A stretch of 50,128 nt of DNA from contig NZRL01000167.1 in NCBI GenBank assembly GCA_002696205.1, positions 1-50,128 on the forward strand, in the 5' to 3' direction. Source of the DNA: Rhodospirillaceae bacterium. Its GTDB lineage: Bacteria; Pseudomonadota; Alphaproteobacteria; Rhodospirillales; Casp-alpha2. Shown in pieces: positions 29,748 to 37,857 of this stretch (positions are counted from its first letter, which is position 1; the number at the start of each line of letters is the position of its first letter). A program made the position numbers and the translations under genes. The notes under the pieces were generated by a model. That model was not told where the DNA came from. It ran no database searches and saw nothing but the letters and a program-made list of their open reading frames with translations.

Positions 29748-30734
29748 TCAGAAAACGTCGGCCAGGACGCGGTCGGGCGGCTTATGGCCGTCGACGAAGG
29801 TCTTGATGTTGATCAGAACCTTTTCGCCCATGTCGATGCGGCCTTCGACCGTGGCACTGCCCAGGTGGGGCAGGAGGACCGTGTTGTCGAGCGCCAGCAG
29901 CTTCGGATTGACCGCCGGTTCGTGTTCGAACACGTCCAGGCCGGCGCCCGCGATCTCGCCCGCTTCCAACATGCGGGTCAGGGCGTTTTCGTCGATGACC
30001 TCGCCGCGCGCCGTGTTGACGATGATCGAATGGGGCTGCAGCAGCTGCAGACGCCGCGCCGACAACAGGTGATAGGTCGCGGGCGTATGGGGGCAGTTGA
30101 CGGAAACCAGATCGACCCGGGCGAGCATCTGATCGAGGCTTTCCCAATAGGTCGCTTCCAATTCGTTTTCGACCGATTCATGCACGCGCTTGCGGTTATG
30201 ATAGTGGACCGCCATGCCGAAACCCCGGGCCCGGCGCGCCACGGCGCGGCCGATGCGGCCCATGCCGATGATACCCAGGCGTTTGCCGTTGATCCGGTGG
30301 CCCAGCATCCAGGTCGGAGACCAGCCGCTCCAATCGCCGGTGCGCATGACGCGTTCGCCTTCGGCGATGCGGCGCGACACGGCGAGGAACAGCGCCATGG
30401 TCATGTCCGCGGTATCCTCGGTCAGAACGTCGGGCGTGTTGGTGACCGTCATGCCCCGCTGGCGCGCACTGGCCAGGTCGATATGGTCGACGCCGGTGCC
30501 GTAGTTGGCGATCAGCCGCAATTGATCCCCCGCCTGCGCCAGGATCGCCGCGTCGATGCGGTCGGTGACCGTCGGCACCAGGACATCGGCCTTGGCCACG
30601 GCCTCGATCAGCTGCGCCTTGGTCATCGGCTTGTCGTCCAGGTTCAACTGCACGTCGAACAGTTCCATCATCCGGGTTTCGATGGCGTCCGGCAGTTTGC
30701 GCGTAACGACGACGCGGGGTTTGGTACTTGGCAT
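29748..30734 (-). CDS. gyaR: D-2-hydroxyacid dehydrogenase, glyoxylate reductase type
   Basis: The 328-residue NAD(P)-dependent enzyme reduces glyoxylate or hydroxypyruvate, or works in reverse. ANYGTGVDHIDL near 77 and the dinucleotide motif LGIIGMGRIGRAVARRA near 153 are intact. The catalytic triad is Arg243 (NTARGEVID), Glu272 (DVFEHEP) and His290 (LLPHLGSAT). The ATG at 30734 gives the standard N-terminus KPRVVVTRKLP. No close functional partner is adjacent; it precedes pabB by 55 nt on the same strand. Exact substrate is not determined. Confidence 0.88.
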   Translation of the reverse strand: MPSTKPRVVVTRKLPDAIETRMMELFDVQLNLDDKPMTKAQLIEAVAKADVLVPTVTDRIDAAILAQAGDQLRLIANYGTGVDHIDLASARQRGMTVTNTPDVLTEDTADMTMALFLAVSRRIAEGERVMRTGDWSGWSPTWMLGHRINGKRLGIIGMGRIGRAVARRARGFGMAVHYHNRKRVHESVENELEATYWESLDQMLARVDLVSVNCPHTPATYHLLSARRLQLLQPHSIIVNTARGEVIDENALTRMLEAGEIAGAGLDVFEHEPAVNPKLLALDNTVLLPHLGSATVEGRIDMGEKVLINIKTFVDGHKPPDRVLADVF

Positions 30735-30944
30735 GGTGGCAGGGTCTCCGTTCTACCCGGGGGCCATAGCAACTTATCATATCCCTTGTCTATAGCACGA
30801 TGAAGTGCCGCAAGGCCCCGGAGAATAGGCTCTTGGGGCTATCCCCTTGACGGGTTCGGGCGGGGCGGCGATAAGACCCTTCGAACGCCGCAAGGACAGG
30901 CAGGGCCGCCCCAACCCGGGGCCGCGCCCAGACCCGAGGACCAC

Positions 30945-31541
30945 ATGATCCGGCATTCCGCCACCCATCCCGAATTGACCGATGTCGGCCACGGCCGGAC
31001 GGCGCGGGGATGTGGGTTGCTGGCAGCCCTGGTGATGGTCGCCGCTCTGGTCCTGGCGCCGCTTCCGGTGGGTGCCCAGGCCCCCGCCGGCGCGGGTGCT
31101 CCGGCGACGACGACCGCACCTTCGGGCCTGCCGCTACCCAGGTTCGTGTCGTTGCGCGCGGGCGAGGTCAACATGCGGTCGGGCCCCGGCGTGCAGTATC
31201 CCGTCGACTGGGTCTACAAACGGCGCCATCTGCCCATGGAAGTGATCGCCGAGTTCCAAACCTGGCGCAAGGTCCGCGACCATCAGGGCACCCAGGGCTG
31301 GGTCCATCAAACCATGTTGGACGGGGACCGCACGGCCATCGTGCTGGGCCGCACCCGGACGCTGCGCGCCGAGCCGGACAGCACCGCGCGGGCGCTGGCG
31401 CGGCTGGAGCCGGATGTGATCGTCCGCATCGTCGTCTGCCCGGGCGAGGGCGGCTGGTGCCGGATCAAGGCATCGGGCTTCGAAGGCTGGATCCGCCGGG
31501 TCGAACTTTGGGGTATCCGCAAGGGCGAAGTGGTCGAATAA
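30945..31541 (+). CDS. Secreted protein with bacterial SH3 domains
   Basis: The 198-residue product has an N-terminal lead of about 20 residues, then a hydrophobic signal segment (GLLAALVMVAALVLAPLPVG) and an Ala/Pro/Thr-rich spacer. Two bacterial SH3-like units follow. The first starts at FVSLRAGEVNMRSGPGVQYP and continues through WRKVRDHQGTQGWVHQ; the second starts at RTRTLRAEPDSTARALARL and ends with GWIRRVELWG. Such domains usually bind cell-wall peptides, so a periplasmic envelope role is plausible. An internal start just ahead of the hydrophobic segment is possible. The gene is divergent from the dehydrogenase and convergent with DUF3501. Confidence 0.85.
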   Translation: MIRHSATHPELTDVGHGRTARGCGLLAALVMVAALVLAPLPVGAQAPAGAGAPATTTAPSGLPLPRFVSLRAGEVNMRSGPGVQYPVDWVYKRRHLPMEVIAEFQTWRKVRDHQGTQGWVHQTMLDGDRTAIVLGRTRTLRAEPDSTARALARLEPDVIVRIVVCPGEGGWCRIKASGFEGWIRRVELWGIRKGEVVE

Positions 31542-31563
31542 CCGCGCCGCCCATCCGCATATG

Positions 31564-31603
31564 AAAACGGCGCGTCCCGCATCGGGCCGCGCCGTCGTCG
31601 TTT
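31564..31603. terminator. Bidirectional terminator between the SH3 gene and DUF3501
   Basis: An 8-bp stem ACGGCGCG / CGCGCCGT encloses a smaller CCCG/CGGG stem. On the minus strand it is followed by TTTT; on the plus strand by CGTCGTTT. It lies between two convergent genes. Confidence 0.75.
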
Positions 31604-31620
31604 GGGGCCGGCCGGGCGGA

Positions 31621-32211
31621 TCAGTCGAAGTCGCTCGCCAAGGCTTCCTTCACGGCGTCGTTCAGGATAGCGATGTGGCCGTACTTTTCGTGCGCCACCT
31701 TCAACATGACCTCGGTGCCGGGTTCCTTGAACTTGGCGACCTGGTCGTCGGTGAAGGGGAAATGCAGGAACTGGATGCTCGACGCCTTGCCGTCCGCCGT
31801 GGTGCGGTCGACATCGTCTTCCGGAATGCCCTTGACCGTTTCGCCGGCGAATTCGAAGGATACCGTTTCCTCGACACCGCCGAGGCCCGCCAGGAATCGC
31901 GCCCGGCGGACCGGATCGTCGATTTCGAACATCAACGTGCAGACCAGTTCGCGGCCCTTGGGAATCAAGGGGTTATAGGCGGACAGCTCGTCTTCGATCT
32001 GATCCTCGCCGCCCTTTTCGATGAACAGCATCTCATGCACTTGATGGAACATGGTGTCGTAGCTTTCGAAATAGAACGTCGCGTCCGGGCCGATCGACAG
32101 GCGCCGGTTGCGTTTCAGTTCGGTCACGCGTTTGCGGCGTTCCGGGCGTTCACGGCCATAGTCCTCCATGGACATGATATCGGCGGGGGTGATCTCGTGC
32201 TTGTTGGGCAT
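31621..32211 (-). CDS. DUF3501 family protein
   Basis: The 196-residue protein has the family's N-terminal pattern: ITPADIMSMEDYGRERPERR, then RRLSIGPDATFYFES and QVHEMLFIEKGG, then ELSAYNPLIPKGREL. Its biochemical role is unknown. It is often found beside rubrerythrin and a CCG-domain Fe-S protein, exactly as here, so it probably acts in the same process. ATG 32211 is preferred because AAGAGG precedes it at good spacing; an in-frame start nine codons upstream (32238) has a weaker site. It begins 35 nt after the Fe-S protein gene and ends the operon at a bidirectional terminator. Confidence 0.88.
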   Translation of the reverse strand: MPNKHEITPADIMSMEDYGRERPERRKRVTELKRNRRLSIGPDATFYFESYDTMFHQVHEMLFIEKGGEDQIEDELSAYNPLIPKGRELVCTLMFEIDDPVRRARFLAGLGGVEETVSFEFAGETVKGIPEDDVDRTTADGKASSIQFLHFPFTDDQVAKFKEPGTEVMLKVAHEKYGHIAILNDAVKEALASDFD

Positions 32212-32246
32212 TGCGGCCTCTTGCAGGGTCGGGGTCATTAAAACTC

Positions 32247-33587
32247 TCAGTCGGCCAGGCCGTAGGCGGTGGCCATCAGTTCAATCGGGTGCTGCGCCTG
32301 TTTGACGCCGGAGGTATCGGCCTCCAGCTTCTCCATACCCTGAAGGATATGGTCACGGGCAAGCGGGCATTCGGAAACGATATAAGGCGTTTCGTTCTTC
32401 GCCGCCTGACGGGCGACCGGCTTGCCCACCTTGATGCCGACGTCGAAGAATTCCTTGGTCACGCCCCAGGAACCGCCGTGACCGGAGCATCGCTCGATCA
32501 CCTTGACGTCGGTTTCAGGCACCAGCTTGAGCATTTCGGCGCCCTTCTGACCCATGTTCTGGGCGCGGGCGTGGCAGGCGATATGCGCCGTGACGCCGCC
32601 GGAAAGCGGCGACATGCCGTCGGCCAGGCCTTCTTTCTTGGCGATGGAAACGATGTATTCGGTGATATCGGACGTATGGGTCGCCAGTTTCTTGACGTTT
32701 TCATCGTCCGGCAGGATCAGCGGCCATTCGAATTTCATCATCAGCGCGCAGGACGGCACCAGGGCGATGATTTCATGCCCTTTGTCGATCCATTCGCACA
32801 GTTCGTCGGCGACTTCCTTGGCGGCCTCGGCGACGGCGGCGATATCGCCCTGTTCCAACTGCGGCATGCCGCAGCAGCGCGGATAGACGGCCGTGGTCTC
32901 GACCCCGTTCTTGGCCAGCACGGCCTGCGCGGCGCTGCCGATATTGGGGTTGTTGTAGTTGGCGAAGCAGGTCGCGTAGAGCACCGCCTTGCGGCCATGG
33001 GCCGGGGCCTCGGTGTTCACAGCGGGCGGCGTCTTGGCGCGCTCCATGAAGGTATCGGCGTGAAATTCCGGCAACTTGGCATCGCGGTGGATATCGCCGA
33101 CGGATTCCATGATCGGGCGGGTCAGCTTGTTGTCGCAATTGCAGGCCCAGTTGACGACGCCCGGCATGGCCGAGGCCAGCTTGCCGTTGCGGTCGGTCTT
33201 GGTCATTTCCCGGGCGGCGAAGGGAACCTTGCCCTTCTTCTGTTCGATGGCGCGGGCGCGCAACATCAGATGCGGGAAATCCAGGTTGAATTCATGGGGC
33301 GGCACGTAGGGACATTTGGTCAGGAAGCACATGTCGCAGAGCGTGCAGGCGTCGATGACCGGCTTGAAATCCTTACTGTCGACCGTGTCGAGTTCGCCGG
33401 ATTCGGATTCGTCGATCAGATCGAAGAGGCGCGGAAAACTGTCGCAGAGATTGAAGCAACGGCGGCAGCCGTGGCAGATGTCGAAGACACGGCGCAGTTC
33501 CTCGTCGAGTTTCTGTTCGTCGTAGAATTCCGCGTCCTGCCAGGGCAGGGGGTGGCGGGTCGGGGCTTCCAGGCTGCCTTCACTCAT
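32247..33587 (-). CDS. Fe-S oxidoreductase with two 4Fe-4S motifs and CCG domains (GlpC/HdrD-like)
   Basis: The 446-residue soluble protein has two ferredoxin-like cysteine sets: Cys38, 41, 44, 48 and Cys81, 84, 87, 92. It then has two cysteine-rich (CCG) domains: the first with Cys207, PRCCGMP at 236-242 and Cys280, the second with Cys338 and CSGHGG at 367-372. In the second domain the CCG triplet is replaced by CSG. This layout is shared with GlpC and heterodisulfide reductase subunit D. Such proteins pass electrons to or from thiols or quinones. Here it lies between rubrerythrin and DUF3501, so it may feed electrons to rubrerythrin; this is inference. GC-rich hairpins lie in the 190-nt gap after rubrerythrin. 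The ATG has AGAGGA upstream. Confidence 0.9.
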   Translation of the reverse strand: MSEGSLEAPTRHPLPWQDAEFYDEQKLDEELRRVFDICHGCRRCFNLCDSFPRLFDLIDESESGELDTVDSKDFKPVIDACTLCDMCFLTKCPYVPPHEFNLDFPHLMLRARAIEQKKGKVPFAAREMTKTDRNGKLASAMPGVVNWACNCDNKLTRPIMESVGDIHRDAKLPEFHADTFMERAKTPPAVNTEAPAHGRKAVLYATCFANYNNPNIGSAAQAVLAKNGVETTAVYPRCCGMPQLEQGDIAAVAEAAKEVADELCEWIDKGHEIIALVPSCALMMKFEWPLILPDDENVKKLATHTSDITEYIVSIAKKEGLADGMSPLSGGVTAHIACHARAQNMGQKGAEMLKLVPETDVKVIERCSGHGGSWGVTKEFFDVGIKVGKPVARQAAKNETPYIVSECPLARDHILQGMEKLEADTSGVKQAQHPIELMATAYGLAD

Positions 33588-33777
33588 GACAAGTCCTCTT
33601 CACGGGCTGGGGGGCCGGACGGACCCGTCGGGTCGTGTCTTCCCGGAAGAACGTCCGGAACTCATGAATATCGGAAAGGGGCCGCACCGGAAGTGGGCGC
33701 GGCGGCCGGCATCGGAAACCGGCCGGCGCGGACGGAACCCGCCCGCGCCGAAACCGGTCCGAGATCGAATCCCGGCC

Positions 33778-34194
33778 TTAGTCCAGGGTGTCGAGCGCTT
33801 TCTGGAAGCGGCCGGCGTGGGACTTTTCGGCTTTCGCCAGGGTTTCGAACCAATCGGCGATTTCGTCGAAACCTTCGTCACGGGCCGTCTTGGCCATGCC
33901 GGGATACATGTCGGTGTATTCGTGGGTTTCACCGGCGATGGACGCTTTCAGGTTGGCGTCGGTGGCGCCGATCGGCTCGCCCGTGGCCGGGTCGCCGACT
34001 TCTTCCAGGAACTCCAGGTGGCCGTGGGCATGGCCGGTTTCGCCTTCGGCGGTGGACCGGAACACGGCGGCGACATCGTTATATCCTTCGACGTCGGCCT
34101 TCTGCGCGAAATAGAGATAGCGGCGGTTGGCCTGGGATTCCCCGGCGAACGCGGCTTTGAGGTTTTCTTCGGTCTGGCTGCCTTTAAGGCTCAT
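33778..34194 (-). CDS. rbr: Rubrerythrin (ferritin-like diiron peroxidase, no rubredoxin domain)
   Basis: The 138-residue protein is a four-helix diiron domain. Ligand motifs are GESQANRRY near 18, EGETGH near 50, [10 protein letters not shown] near 88, and AEKSH near 122, giving the paired E and ExxH sets of the family. The C-terminal rubredoxin domain of classical rubrerythrins is absent, so an external electron donor is needed; the Fe-S protein encoded next is a candidate. Rubrerythrins reduce hydrogen peroxide to water in the cytoplasm. A strong promoter at 34246-34274 with an adjacent Irr-box-like site suggests iron control. The ribosome binding site AAGGGAG is strong. Confidence 0.93.
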
Positions 34195-34245
34195 GGTTTG
34201 ACTCCCTTAGGTGGACTGGTGGACAGTTAATTTATGGAGGCAAAT

Positions 34246-34274
34246 GTTATGCTATGACAGGCAATTGGTGTCAA
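34246..34274 (-). promoter_or_regulatory. Rubrerythrin promoter
   Basis: On the minus strand TTGACA (34269-34274) and CATAAC (34246-34251) are 17 nt apart. The -35 is perfect. Transcription would begin about 45 nt ahead of rubrerythrin. Confidence 0.75.
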
Positions 34275-34275
34275 G

Positions 34276-34292
34276 TTTAGAATTATTTTAAT
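34276..34292 (-). promoter_or_regulatory. Candidate Irr (ICE-box-like) operator upstream of rubrerythrin
   Basis: The plus-strand 17-mer is TTTAGAA-TTA-TTTTAAT. One half matches TTTAGAA fully; the other matches TTCTAAA at 5 of 7 positions, with the 3-nt spacer of the ICE motif. It ends one base from the -35 hexamer. An irr gene is the next upstream gene. Confidence 0.55.
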
Positions 34293-34379
34293 CTGATGTA
34301 GACAAGCCGGACCGCGGCCCCGAGGGGGCCTGCGGCAGGCCGGGCGAATGAGGGCCCGGCAAAACGGCGGAGCAAGGCG

Positions 34380-34859
34380 TCAGGCGTCGGCGGGACGGAC
34401 GCGAACGACGACGTCGACGCGCGACACGGCCATGCCGTCGGGCACCGGCGGCAGGGCCGCGACTTCGACCTGGTCGCCCGGAATATCCGACAGCTCACCC
34501 GTTTCATCGAAATAGAAATGGTGATGGTCGGACATGTTGGTATCGAAATAGGTGCGCTGGGAATCGACGACGATTTCCCGCAGCAGACCCGCGCGGTGGA
34601 ATTGATGCAGAGTGTTATAGACCGTGGCGAGCGAGACCCGCACGTTCGCGGACTGGGCATCGGCATGGAGCATTTCCGCCGTCAGGTGGCGGTCGCCGCC
34701 GTCGAACAGAAGCTTGGCGAGCGCCATGCGCTGGCGCGTCGGGCGCAGGCCGGCGCCACGCAGGCGGTCGAGAATCTGGCTGAACGGGCGGCCTTCGGCG
34801 GCGGGGGCCGCGTCGTCCGACGGCGCGATGTCCGAAGGTGTATTGGAGGTGCGAGTCAT
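34380..34859 (-). CDS. irr: Irr-type Fur-family iron/heme-responsive regulator
   Basis: The 159-residue protein has the Fur winged helix (LRGAGLRPTRQRMALAKLLF, then VRVSLATVYNTLHQFHRAGLL). In the dimerisation domain it has the triple histidine of Irr: SDHHHFYFDETGEL with His112-114, then DIPGDQVEVAALPPVPDG. Fur and Zur lack this pattern and have C-terminal cysteines instead. The N-terminal heme motif GCPWHD of Bradyrhizobium Irr is absent, as in many Irr proteins. Irr controls iron and heme genes in alphaproteobacteria. A -10 with an overlapping Irr/Fur-like site at 34931-34947 suggests autoregulation. The gene lies between fabI and rubrerythrin on the same strand. Confidence 0.88.
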   Translation of the reverse strand: MTRTSNTPSDIAPSDDAAPAAEGRPFSQILDRLRGAGLRPTRQRMALAKLLFDGGDRHLTAEMLHADAQSANVRVSLATVYNTLHQFHRAGLLREIVVDSQRTYFDTNMSDHHHFYFDETGELSDIPGDQVEVAALPPVPDGMAVSRVDVVVRVRPADA

Positions 34860-34930
34860 ATCGTGGGTCTATTCGCGGGCCGAAGGGCCACACGCCTTCT
34901 TCTTACGGCATGGATAGGCACCGATTAAAA

Positions 34931-34947
34931 CTTAGAATGATTATATA
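34931..34947 (-). promoter_or_regulatory. irr promoter -10 with overlapping Irr/Fur-like site
   Basis: On the minus strand a perfect TATAAT (34940-34945) lies about 80 nt ahead of irr. It is embedded in the 17-mer TATATAA-TCA-TTCTAAG, a partial ICE-box with a 3-nt spacer. No good -35 is seen. The overlap would suit repression. Confidence 0.5.
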
Positions 34948-35016
34948 AAAATGGATAAGGGATTTTCCAGACTTAATTGTTCGCTGGAAACATCCGATTT
35001 TCGACCCGCTCCGGGA

Positions 35017-35877
35017 TCACTCGTCGACCATGTCCTCGGGGTTCGGCAGGCCGATGATGTTGTAGCCGGAATCGACGTGATGGACCTCGCCCGTGACCCC
35101 GGCCGACAGATCGGACAGCAGGTAAAGGGCCGAGCCGCCGACATCTTCCAGGCGCACCGTCCGCTTGAGCGGCGCGTGACGCTGATTCCATTTATAGACG
35201 TGACGGGCGCCGCCGATGGCGCTGCCCGCGAGGGTCCGCATGGGCCCGGCCGAGATCGCGTTGACGCGGATGCCATCGGGGCCCAGGTTGGCGGCAAGAT
35301 ACCGCACGCTGGCCTCGAGCGCCGCCTTGGCGACGCCCATGACGTTGTAGTTCGGCATCACGCGGGTCGAGCCCGTATAGGTCAAGGTGACCATGGAGCC
35401 GCCTTCGCCCATCAAGTCGGCGGCCGCGCGGGCCAGGGCCGTGAAGGAATAGCAGCTGACGTCCATGGTCCGCAGGAAGTTGTCACGGGTCGTGTTCAGG
35501 TACTTCCCCTTGAGCTCTTCCTTGTCCGAATAAGCCACGGCATGGACCAGGAAATCCAACCCGCCCCACCGGCTTTTCAATTCCCCGAACAGCGCGTCTA
35601 TGGAGGCCTGATCCTCGACCTCGCACGGCAGGACGAGGTCCGATCCGACCTCGGCGGCCAGCGGCGAAACCCGCTTGGCGATGGCGTCGTTCTGATAGGT
35701 GAAGGCCAATTCGGCGCCATGGCGGCGCAATTCGCGGGCGATGCCCCAGGCGATGGAATGATCGTTGGCGACCCCCATGATCAGGCCCCGGCGGCCGGCC
35801 ATGATGTTGGATTGCAACGCAGGCGTATCCTGGCTATCCGCCGGGGGCACGCCTGAACCGTCAACAGGGCCGTTCAT
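35017..35877 (-). CDS. fabI: Enoyl-ACP reductase (NADH) FabI
   Basis: FabI performs the last reduction of each type II fatty-acid elongation cycle. The 286-residue protein has GLIMGVANDHSIAWGIA near 31, the SDR active site YTGSTRVMPNYNVMGVAKAALEA with Tyr167, Tyr177 and Lys184 at the FabI spacing, and NAISAGPMRTLAGSAIG. An N-terminal extension of about 26 residues precedes the core; the ATG at 35877 has AGGAG 8 nt upstream, so the extension seems real. It follows fabB by 40 nt in a fabA-fabB-fabI operon. A TTTCCAG/CTGGAAA hairpin follows the gene at about 34970-34995 and may end the transcript. Confidence 0.96.
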   Translation of the reverse strand: MNGPVDGSGVPPADSQDTPALQSNIMAGRRGLIMGVANDHSIAWGIARELRRHGAELAFTYQNDAIAKRVSPLAAEVGSDLVLPCEVEDQASIDALFGELKSRWGGLDFLVHAVAYSDKEELKGKYLNTTRDNFLRTMDVSCYSFTALARAAADLMGEGGSMVTLTYTGSTRVMPNYNVMGVAKAALEASVRYLAANLGPDGIRVNAISAGPMRTLAGSAIGGARHVYKWNQRHAPLKRTVRLEDVGGSALYLLSDLSAGVTGEVHHVDSGYNIIGLPNPEDMVDE

Positions 35878-35917
35878 TCAATTTCTCCTGCAGGTCCGCC
35901 GTTGGACGCTGGACCGA

Positions 35918-37138
35918 TCACGCCTCGAAGCGTTTGAAGGCCAGGGAGGCATTGGTGCCGCCGAAGCCGAAGCTGTTGGACAGGACGCAGTTGAGCCCCG
36001 CATCGTCGATGCGCTGGGTCACGATTTCGGCGTCGCCGGCCGCCGGGTCGAGATTTTCGACATTGGCCGAGGCAGCGATGAAATCGTTGTTCAGCATGAT
36101 CAGGGAATAAATCGCCTCATGGGCGCCGGTCGCCCCCTGGGAATGACCGGTCAGGGATTTGGTCGACGAAATTTTCGGCCGGTCCGCGCCGAACACGTCG
36201 GCGATGGCCTTCAATTCCGTCATGTCGCCCGCAGGGGTCGAGGTCCCATGGGCGTTGATGTAATCGACCTTGGTATTGCCGAGCCCCTGGGTCGCCAGGC
36301 GCATGCAGCGCATGGCGCCCTCGCCCGACGGCGCCACCATGTCGACACCATCCGACGTGGCCCCATAGCCGACGATCTCACCATAGATTTTGGCACCCCG
36401 CGCGGTCGCGCGTTCCAGGTCTTCCAACACCACCACACCGGCCCCGCCGGCGATGACGAAGCCGTCGCGGTCGACGTCGAAGGGACGCGAGGCGCGCTCG
36501 GGCGTGTCATTGTATTTCGAGGACAGGGCCCCCATGGCGTCGAACAGGACGCTCAGCGTCCAATGCAGTTCTTCCCCGCCGCCGGCGATGACCACGTCCT
36601 GTTTGCCCATCTGGATCAGCTCCGCCCCGTTGCCGATGCAATGGGCCGAGGTCGAACAGGCGGACGAAATGGAATAGCTGAGGCCGCGCATGTGATAGGC
36701 CGTCGCCATGTTCGCCGACACGGTCGAGCACATGGCCTTGGGCACGGCATAGGGGCCGACGCGTTTGGCGCCACGATCGCGGGCCGTATCGACAGCATCG
36801 ACCTGAGCCGAGGTCGACGGCCCGCCGGAACCCATCACAAGGCCCGTGCGCTCGCTGGAAACCTCGGCTTCCGACAGGCCCGCGTCCTTGATGGCCTCGC
36901 CCATGGCGATATAGGAATAGGCCGCCCCGTCGCCCATGAAGCGGCGCAGTTTGCGGTCGATCTTATCGTCCATGTCGATCTTGGGCGCGCCATGAAGGTG
37001 GCTGCGGAACCCGCGCTCGGCATATTCATCGCAAAACACAATGCCCGAGCGCCCGGCGCGCAGGCTGTCCGTCACCTCGGCAATATTATTGCCGATGGGC
37101 GACACAATTCCCATTCCGGTAACGACGACGCGTTTCAT
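35918..37138 (-). CDS. fabB: Beta-ketoacyl-ACP synthase I FabB
   Basis: The 406-residue thiolase-fold condensing enzyme has the catalytic triad Cys161 ([12 protein letters not shown]), His297 ([11 protein letters not shown]) and His332 ([15 protein letters not shown]). Sequence between these blocks (for example [28 protein letters not shown]) is that of FabB rather than FabF. FabB is needed to elongate cis-unsaturated intermediates made by FabA, and fabA lies only 12 nt upstream, which supports the call. It acts in the cytoplasm with ACP-bound substrates. Confidence 0.96.
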
Positions 37139-37150
37139 GGGCCTCTCTTA

Positions 37151-37663
37151 CTACCCTTCGGGGTCCGAGAACAAGGTTACGCGCATATCTTCGGTTTCGT
37201 AAGCCGTTTTGCCGTCGATCAGCATCGTCCCGTTGGCGATTCCAAGCGTGATCTGGCGCGACATGATGCGCCGGATGTCGATGCGGAACTGCAGCAATTT
37301 GGCGTCCGGCTGCACCTGTTCGGTGAACTTGACGGAACCGACGCCCAACGCCCGGCCGCGGCCCGGCGCCCCGGTCCAACCCAGGTAGAACCCGGTCAAT
37401 TGCCAAAGCGCATCCAGGCCCAGGCAGCCCGGCATCACCGGGTCGCCTTCGAAATGGCATTTGAAGAACCAGAGGTCGGGATTGATATCCATCTCGGCCT
37501 CGGCATAGCCCTTGCCGAAGGCGCCGCCGTCTTCGTGGATGGCGGTGATGCGATCCATCATCAGCATCGGCGGCATGGGCAATTGCGCATTGCCGGACCC
37601 GAACAGGTCGCCCTTCGCGCAGGTGATCAATTCGTCATAGGAATAGGCGTTTTTCTTGGTCAC
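37151..37663 (-). CDS. fabA: 3-hydroxydecanoyl-ACP dehydratase/isomerase FabA
   Basis: FabA dehydrates 3-hydroxydecanoyl-ACP and isomerises the product to the cis-3 form, opening unsaturated fatty-acid synthesis. With the GTG start at 37663 the protein has 170 residues. The catalytic residues are His70 ([13 protein letters not shown]) and Asp84 ([13 protein letters not shown]), the same numbers as in E. coli FabA, which supports this start. The frame stays open upstream for about 58 codons, including an in-frame ATG, but that sequence is not FabA-like. The GTG overlaps the stop of a five-codon ORF with a strong ribosome binding site, so translation may be coupled. Confidence 0.94.
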
Positions 37664-37677
37664 GCTTTTGCGGCCAT
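37660..37677 (-). promoter_or_regulatory. Possible five-codon leader ORF coupled to fabA
   Basis: ATG-GCC-GCA-AAA-GCG-TGA (MAAKA) is preceded by AAGGGAGG (37687-37694) at 9 nt spacing. Its TGA overlaps the fabA GTG in the sequence GTGA. The fabA start itself has no nearby Shine-Dalgarno sequence. Confidence 0.4.
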
Positions 37678-37857
37678 TGCTGCCCGCCTCCCTTGGACTT
37701 GCCGGTGTCCCTGCGGGCATCCCCGGCGACACGGCTTTTCGTTTCTGATGATTGGTTTCTCTTTTTATTCCAGGCCGTTCAGGCCCAGTTTTTCCACCTA
37801 TCTCTGAGCCGCACAATACCCAGAGATGCCGCCCCAAGGCAACCGTAGCAAACGCCT

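Follow-up and report, generated by a model that had tools for sequence, protein, structure and literature searches.

The window, that is, the whole stretch of DNA analyzed here, is the 50,128-nucleotide (nt) contig NZRL01000167.1 of a Rhodospirillaceae bacterium (assembly GCA_002696205.1). One of its loci carries genes for a rubrerythrin (RBR), an Fe-S protein with CCG domains (RFO) and a protein of the DUF3501 family, together with the iron/heme response regulator gene irr and a promoter with a predicted Irr box (Table 1). The genes of the trio all lie on the minus strand and fall in the Pfam families named in the initial annotation of this DNA, which had described them as running in one direction next to irr; the next gene upstream does pass the NCBIfam cut-off for IrrA. 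Read downstream on the minus strand, the order is fabA, fabB, fabI, irr, RBR, RFO and DUF3501, followed by a convergent gene for an SH3-domain protein. Pfam searches covered the trio, irr, fabI and the SH3 gene, while the names fabA and fabB come from reading the sequence. The rubrerythrin had also been described as lacking its rubredoxin domain, and the protein indeed matched PF02915 and Ferritin only. Its closest solved chains are the rubrerythrins 9onm and 4di0, followed by sulerythrin 1j30, which places it in the group of sulerythrin and Burkholderia pseudomallei 4DI0. The nearest named relative is an uncultured Rhodospirillaceae bacterium with a DUF3501 protein that is 97% identical.

Table 1. 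Features of the rubrerythrin locus (positions in the window)
Feature	Position	Strand	Details
SH3-domain protein gene	30945-31541	+	PF06347, E 6e-32; convergent with DUF3501
DUF3501	31621-32211	-	196 amino acids; PF12007, E 6e-57
RFO (Fe-S protein with CCG domains)	32247-33587	-	PF02754, E 2e-10 (residues 202-285)
RBR, aerobic-type rubrerythrin	33778-34194	-	138 amino acids, one diiron ferritin-like domain; PF02915, E 5e-31
Probable -10 element CATAAC	34246-34251	-	17-nt spacer to the -35 element
-35 element TTGACA	34269-34274	-	follows the Irr box downstream after a gap of one base
Irr box (predicted iron control element), ATTAAAATAATTCTAAA as read on the minus strand	34276-34292		2 mismatches in 14 to the assumed consensus; kept here in relatives
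irr, Fur-family iron/heme response regulator	34380-34859	-	NF045678 (NCBIfam IrrA), 221.8 bits, cut-off 150
Weak Irr-box-like site upstream of irr	34931-34947		3 mismatches
fabI-like enoyl-ACP reductase	35017-35877	-	PF13561, E 9e-92; opens the fabI-fabB-fabA block beside irr

The distribution of the three families was compared across 199 genomes of the order; here and below, class and order of a sampled genome refer to its kinship to the window genome, and "non-alphaproteobacterial" and "other type" are labels given in this analysis. DUF3501 was present in 115 genomes, RFO (counted at E up to 1e-60) in 112 and RBR (at least 78% identity) in 112, and 109 genomes had all three. Counted as both, first only, second only and neither, the pairs gave 111/4/1/83 for DUF3501 and RFO, 110/5/2/82 for DUF3501 and RBR, and 110/2/2/85 for RFO and RBR. 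The Fisher p was below 1e-46 in every case, although these genomes are related and hence not independent draws. Another 25 genomes had only a distant rubrerythrin (at most 62% identity, E up to 1e-30), and neither RFO nor DUF3501 was found in any of them. Eight genomes departed from strict co-occurrence (G008, G012, G023, G024, G034, G094, G145 and G169). The coordinates put the genes at or near contig ends in G012, G023, G034, G145 and G169, and G094 (locus L253) has shortened or broken RFO and RBR frames beside a whole DUF3501 gene; G008 is taken up below. A separate rubrerythrin with 52-62% identity was seen without RFO and DUF3501 in genomes of family f29, genus g36.

Gene order was conserved as well. 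RBR, RFO and DUF3501 followed each other on one strand in all 100 hand-picked DUF3501 loci, of which 90 came from the class and 10 from the phylum's other classes. The same order was seen in 23 of 26 named loci, which belong to Rhodospirillales, other Alphaproteobacteria or unplaced Proteobacteria. Since the loci were selected by DUF3501, these figures speak for linkage and not for frequency. Two of the named exceptions, L005 and L018, begin inside RFO at a contig end. The third, L008, has an RFO cut to residues 200-444 and a DUF3501 gene that contains a stop and is accompanied by a second remnant; neither RBR nor irr was present in the 8 kb upstream, and the copy looks broken. The broken copies in G094 and L008 may be pseudogenes or assembly errors. 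A scan of 247 loci turned up two natural RFO-DUF3501 fusions (L241 and L242, both in genus g454), a count that gives no rate because these loci were fetched for their long open frames. Taken together, the near-perfect co-occurrence, which is far from random, the conserved order and the fusions support the view that RBR, RFO and DUF3501 form one module, as the initial annotation had proposed. Of the genomes sampled, 186 of 385 in the class, 143 of 300 in one other order and 25 of 398 across the phylum had the family PF12007.

The three proteins have not been conserved to the same extent. Median identities to the window proteins were 90% for RBR (n = 107), 65% for RFO (n = 139) and 57% for DUF3501 (n = 139) in modules of the alphaproteobacterial type, and 83% (n = 19), 45% (n = 43) and 36% (n = 46), respectively, in those of the other type. 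RBR is thus far more conserved than its two partners. The non-alphaproteobacterial loci L192-L203 had RBR proteins 80-88% identical to that of the window, with RFO at about 45% and DUF3501 at about 36%.

The trio is almost certainly the alphaproteobacterial form of the aerobic-type rubrerythrin system RBR-RFO-DUF3501. Cardenas et al. (2016) described an aerobic-type rubrerythrin lineage that has no rubredoxin domain and is co-located and co-occurs with DUF3501 and a COG0247 protein, which they named RFO; the triple was present in 185 genomes of a 4461-genome set, RFO was suggested to make up for the lost rubredoxin domain, and an RFO-DUF3501 fusion was reported from Nitrosomonas (PMC5114695). 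The present set shares with that system the three families, their clustering, a rubrerythrin without rubredoxin domain and RFO-DUF3501 fusions: the window RBR is clustered with a PF12007 gene and with a COG0247-type Fe-S oxidoreductase that has a CCG domain, as judged by PF02754. All three proteins have also been reported in eukaryotes, including Andalucia; these share the proteins with the window, but their genes are unlinked and mitochondrial targeting is predicted, and the origin of eukaryotic RFO and DUF3501, and probably of RBR too, was traced to Alphaproteobacteria (PMC7050145). Oxidative stress has been tied to the three genes, which adjoin OxyR in Sideroxydans (PMC7852563).

The closest biochemical point of reference, and the only relative with a peroxidase assay in the literature examined, is ferriperoxin (Fpx) of Hydrogenobacter thermophilus. 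Like the window RBR, it is a one-domain rubrerythrin, in this case from an aerobe; it was purified and shown to be a peroxidase dependent on FNR and NADPH. Its substrates are hydrogen peroxide (H2O2) and organic hydroperoxides, and aerobic growth is blocked when it is lost (PMC3317640). Fpx differs in that it was assayed with FNR and NADPH and without RFO (PMC3317640), and in that the RFO gene of that organism lies apart from the other two (PMC5114695). The initial annotation had stated that the genes recur together without biochemical description. The recurrence stands, but the association has been named since 2016 (PMC5114695), and the lack of biochemistry applies, in the literature examined, to RFO and DUF3501 and not to the rubrerythrin class, for which Fpx is a purified peroxidase (PMC3317640). 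A search of the available text of Cardenas et al. returned no "irr" (PMC5114695), so that the Irr box and the promoter geometry described below are additions to that system. No mention of Irr control of RBR-RFO-DUF3501 was found in the literature searched, and an earlier prediction in regulon work is quite possible. What looks new is a strongly conserved Irr site against the promoter of a known operon, and we make no claim to a first report.

The Irr protein of the window has 159 amino acids and carries an HHH heme motif of the HXH type within SDHHHFYFDE. It has no cysteine and therefore no cysteine heme regulatory motif of the Bradyrhizobium type. The initial annotation had pointed to an Irr-box-like site in the promoter and to a possible tie between the module and iron or heme status. 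For the Irr box we took the consensus to be TTTAGAA-N3-TTCTAAA, and its core was then found de novo. The window genome alone held five places with at most 2 mismatches against four for the reversed control pattern; the significance of the box therefore comes from its conservation in relatives, and this conservation supports both proposals. A tblastn search with the window Irr placed irr directly upstream of RBR (within 900 nt) in 70 of the 90 class loci and in none of the 10 others. These 70 loci and 20 named ones gave 90 irr-linked promoters, in which the 300 nt before RBR were scanned. The box was present in 54 of the 90 at no more than 2 mismatches and in 76 at no more than 3, while 1800 first-order shuffles gave 0.2% and 1.4%, respectively, and the 300 nt before RFO, scanned as a control, gave 0/121 and 1/121. 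Promoters without an adjacent irr had the box at the stricter threshold in 11 of 32 cases. In the de novo search for inverted repeats, TTAGAA-N3-TTCTAA was the top word, occurring in 26 of 84 non-redundant irr-linked promoters, and no word in any of 20 shuffles exceeded 2.

The box also keeps a fixed relation to the promoter. In the 84 promoters, information content was high in most of the 17 box columns and low in the flanks, except in the -35 region. Taking irr-linked and other promoters together, 65 had a box with at most 2 mismatches, a few of these promoters being near-identical. In 55 of them, including 50 among the 54 irr-linked ones, TTGA[CT] began 0-6 nt behind the box, most often at 3 nt (28 promoters), where chance would give 5.5%. 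The -35 hexamer was TTGACN in 53 of these 55 sites, and 36 of the 55 had a -10 element at a 17-nt spacer when the best of four spacers was taken. A separate consensus scan, which demands T at the last position, does not list the window's CATAAC. A site of no more than 3 mismatches was found in 26 of 90 regions upstream of irr; autoregulation of irr through the weak site of the window is possible, with a conservation below the level at which we would claim it. Two of the other places in the window genome with at most 2 mismatches, both with the sequence TTGAGAATCATTCTCAA (L250 and L251, position 1501) precede sigma-factor genes that are FecI-like by eye, and are likely Fur-type iron control sites.

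The presence of the box was then compared with that of the regulator. The Irr family was searched for in 31 genomes, chosen mainly because their RBR does not lie beside irr. In 17 of them, among these the irr-linked G000, the best match to the family exceeded 110 bits, and 14 had a weak Fur-like match or none. The box at no more than 2 mismatches was found in 11 of the 17 and in none of the 14 (Fisher p 1.5e-4). Two observations weigh against a strict dependence. At 3 mismatches the box was seen in 12 of the 17 and also in 4 of the 14 genomes without Irr (G820, G934, G892 and G905), and the stricter box was missing in G003, G050, G087, G036, G932 and G861 despite their Irr-family match; these six misses among 17 count against a universal rule. 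Nonetheless, because the box is conserved, its geometry is fixed and it goes with the presence of Irr, it is very likely that Irr controls the operon through the predicted box.

Some cases in this comparison are of separate interest. G772, which lies outside the class (locus L192), and G745, which lies inside it with a module of the other type (L199), share the exact box TTTAGATTGATTCTAAA; their Irr-like genes score 124.5 bits (below the NCBIfam cut-off) and about 150 bits (at the cut-off), respectively. It is possible that module and control were transferred together. The loci L166 (G934) and L167 (G892), from two genomes of one family that both lack Irr, have sites of the type TTGAGAA...TCAA before RBR. 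These sites are presumably closer to a Fur-type box, and a regulator swap is possible.

The sign of the control is less clear than its existence. Apo-Irr binds the box and represses or activates depending on the position of the site (PMC7762939). We consider repression the probable outcome in the RBR operon, since the -35 element comes close to the consensus and repression would spare iron. Activation at low heme or iron, which we regard as rather unlikely, would draw on the box being placed upstream of the promoter's -35 element, its centre lying roughly 9 to 15 nt from that element by calculation from the gaps; an activator at this place could touch RNA polymerase. Two published points side with it and weigh against repression: a review stresses that activation by Irr is common and site-dependent (PMC7762939), and rbr of Candidatus Pelagibacter ubique, a rubrerythrin gene possibly of another type than that of the window, rose 1.57-fold on iron limitation (PMC2864753). 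On the other hand, a TTGACN hexamer in 53 of 55 sites is unlike an activator-dependent promoter, and spending iron on the RBR system during an iron shortage would be odd. The sole geometric parallel, Rhodobacter sphaeroides ccpA, has the same box-to-start geometry as the window operon, with transcription starting about 40 nt below the box, and showed only a slight response to irr deletion, whereas mbfA, where transcription starts inside the box, was expressed at a higher level in the deletion mutant (PMC3413700). MbfA ("rubrerythrin-like" blr7895) resembles RBR in being a ferritin-like diiron protein under Irr in Alphaproteobacteria, but it is a membrane iron exporter (PMC3413700), and the window RBR scores 18.9 against an NCBIfam MbfA cut-off of 450.

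RFO has the anatomy of an electron carrier with an altered site. Fifteen cysteines were invariant or nearly so in 183 aligned sequences. The two 4Fe-4S motifs that had been predicted were conserved throughout, C38/41/44/48 in 181 and C81/84/87/92 in all 183. The claim of two CCG domains held for the fold and not for the ligands. In HdrB, CCG domains follow the five-cysteine rule C-CC-CxxC. Neither site of RFO has this pattern: the first is C207-X30-CC (C238, C239)-X40-C280, and the second consists of C338-X28-C367-X39-C407 only. A weak alignment with HdrB (E 4e-4) placed V277, S368 and A410 where HdrB has further cysteines, one in the first site and two in the second. From its sequence, the first site can accommodate an ordinary cluster with four cysteine ligands. 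The second, as predicted from the two absent cysteines, must differ from that of HdrB. Histidines H339 and H370 were present in 183 of 183 sequences and H413 in 179. The AlphaFold model of RFO (mean predicted local distance difference test, pLDDT, 87.4) matched Mycobacterium smegmatis EtfD over nearly its whole length (Z 20.2 over 351 residues), the LutA model (Z 21.8), HdrB (Z 17.6) and the Helicobacter hypothetical protein 3kwl (Z 16.4); its CCG folds are as in HdrB and LutA. RFO remained below every NCBIfam cut-off listed, including those of GlpC (189.8 of 278 bits for NF008369 and 116.1 of 279.9 for TIGR03379).

The DUF3501 model (pLDDT 90.1) matched the solved relative 3fjv, to which no function is assigned, with Z 24.9; besides it, the best VIA-align scores were at Z 7.5 and below and may reflect a common arrangement. 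A function for DUF3501 based on the fold was therefore dropped as a candidate, and there was no NCBIfam match. An in-frame ATG also occurs upstream of the DUF3501 gene at 32238, and the alignment shows the ATG at 32211 as the start used in relatives.

We propose, on balance, that RBR is the peroxidase, RFO the wire and DUF3501 the adaptor of one operon shut off by apo-Irr. RBR, by homology, would be a diiron peroxidase for H2O2 and organic hydroperoxides. Its rubredoxin domain having been lost, electrons would reach it by way of RFO; together, the two [4Fe-4S] clusters of RFO and its first CCG site may form a wire like the soluble parts of EtfD and GlpC, which are electron-transfer wires. DUF3501 would hold RFO and RBR together. 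One sigma-70 promoter would serve the operon. At low heme or iron, apo-Irr on the box touching the -35 element would turn the operon off, and this iron-rich peroxidase, with a diiron site and at least two clusters, would be made only with iron to spare. Within this scheme the role of RFO as electron donor to RBR is somewhat probable, and that of DUF3501 as adaptor is tentative. The scheme is the simplest reading of the near-strict trio, the RFO-DUF3501 fusions and the case of G008 (L254, 1769-2628), which keeps RBR, with an SH3 gene directly after it, and lacks RFO and DUF3501 together. No irr match was found in the 5 kb fetched from G008, and no Irr box.

Several observations weigh against this scheme. 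Fpx is active with FNR and NADPH alone and does not need RFO in vitro (PMC3317640), G008 has RBR without the other two, and Thermoproteales have RBR and DUF3501 without RFO (PMC5114695). A weak test in 126 loci, in which neighboring open reading frames (ORFs) were clustered, recognized no recurrent donor gene (FNR, ferredoxin or ETF) beside the operon: 20 representative neighbor ORFs inspected by eye looked like metabolic or housekeeping genes or reading-frame shadows, a weak negative for a donor, and the 45 largest groups were free of non-alphaproteobacterial loci. Nor was a donor gene recognized among the neighbors of the 12 non-alphaproteobacterial loci. Three of these (L193, L196 and L200, one family) share an upstream FAD-dependent oxidoreductase, which in L193 is a PRK08132 protein over the cut-off, and a further downstream gene. 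Because of Fpx and G008, RFO, which the initial annotation had called the obvious donor, is still a candidate. The same facts would suit a different division of labor, in which RFO and DUF3501 serve the diiron site of RBR, by assembling, loading or repairing it, and RBR itself is reduced by general carriers, for example FNR or ferredoxin; the unusual ligand set of the second CCG site would fit such a role as well. The Thermoproteales arrangement (PMC5114695) fits both a maturation factor and an RBR-touching adaptor. We nevertheless consider the assembly role unlikely, since the fold of RFO and its 15 invariant or nearly invariant cysteines are of the electron-transfer type, and the near-strict co-occurrence suggests a continuing rather than an occasional need for RFO and DUF3501.

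A complex that is not mainly a peroxidase, but oxidizes ferrous iron or acts on another substrate with peroxide incidental, appears quite improbable. The link to an iron regulator fits iron handling, and the rubrerythrin of Pelagibacter was termed a putative ferroxidase by its authors (PMC2864753). Against this stand the substrates of Fpx and the aerobic growth defect that follows its loss (PMC3317640), and two of the 12 loci of the non-alphaproteobacterial type lie beside peroxide-defence genes, which fits peroxide defence: ahpF, over the cut-off, in L195 and a catalase-family gene in L201. Both genes (2133-3686 in L195 and 2411-4057 in L201) lie upstream of the rubrerythrin operon, and both genomes are outside the class. 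Finally, the idea that the neighboring irr and the box are left over from an old gene order and do not regulate the operon agrees with the widespread synteny and with the lack of enrichment in the window genome, but it is strongly disfavored, since the box is kept and the flanks are not, the box occurs at RBR also where irr lies elsewhere in the genome, and it is absent at no more than 2 mismatches from all 14 genomes without Irr.

If the peroxidase, wire and adaptor scheme and its control by Irr are read jointly, the operon may be an ancestral Irr target that places a main diiron peroxidase of Alphaproteobacteria under heme/iron sensing, RFO a distinct CCG carrier, and the pre-mitochondrial version of the system heme-controlled. 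We give this joint reading slightly less than an even chance. Its last part follows from the trio that eukaryotes appear to inherit via the mitochondrion, which would make heme control of the pre-mitochondrial version probable. If the reading is true, a heme/iron sensor, and not a peroxide sensor, controls this peroxidase by way of a box in fixed register with the -35 element, and RFO represents a CCG carrier class dedicated to a diiron enzyme, with a second site remodeled to three cysteines and invariant histidines. The trio is common in the lineage, patchier across the phylum and reported from mitochondria, and it raises the question of how a rubredoxin-less rubrerythrin is reduced. The Irr link predicts when the operon should be on and would add an iron/heme-controlled peroxidase to the Irr targets. 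The electron path can be tested directly by way of the altered CCG site of RFO and the natural fusions of RFO with DUF3501.

The genes around the module are conserved neighbors that lie outside it. The SH3-domain gene was present in 50 of the 90 fetched class loci, and at least two fab genes, which in the window form the block 35017-37837, were found in 36 of the 90 in variable orientation. An Rfam search of 30500-36000 gave no match. The gap between RBR and RFO (33588-33777) has an unusually strong predicted RNA fold (z -2.8). About 27 nt past the RBR stop codon it contains a stem of 12 pairs, and the fold could perhaps act in processing or attenuation of the mRNA and so allow more RBR than RFO to be made.

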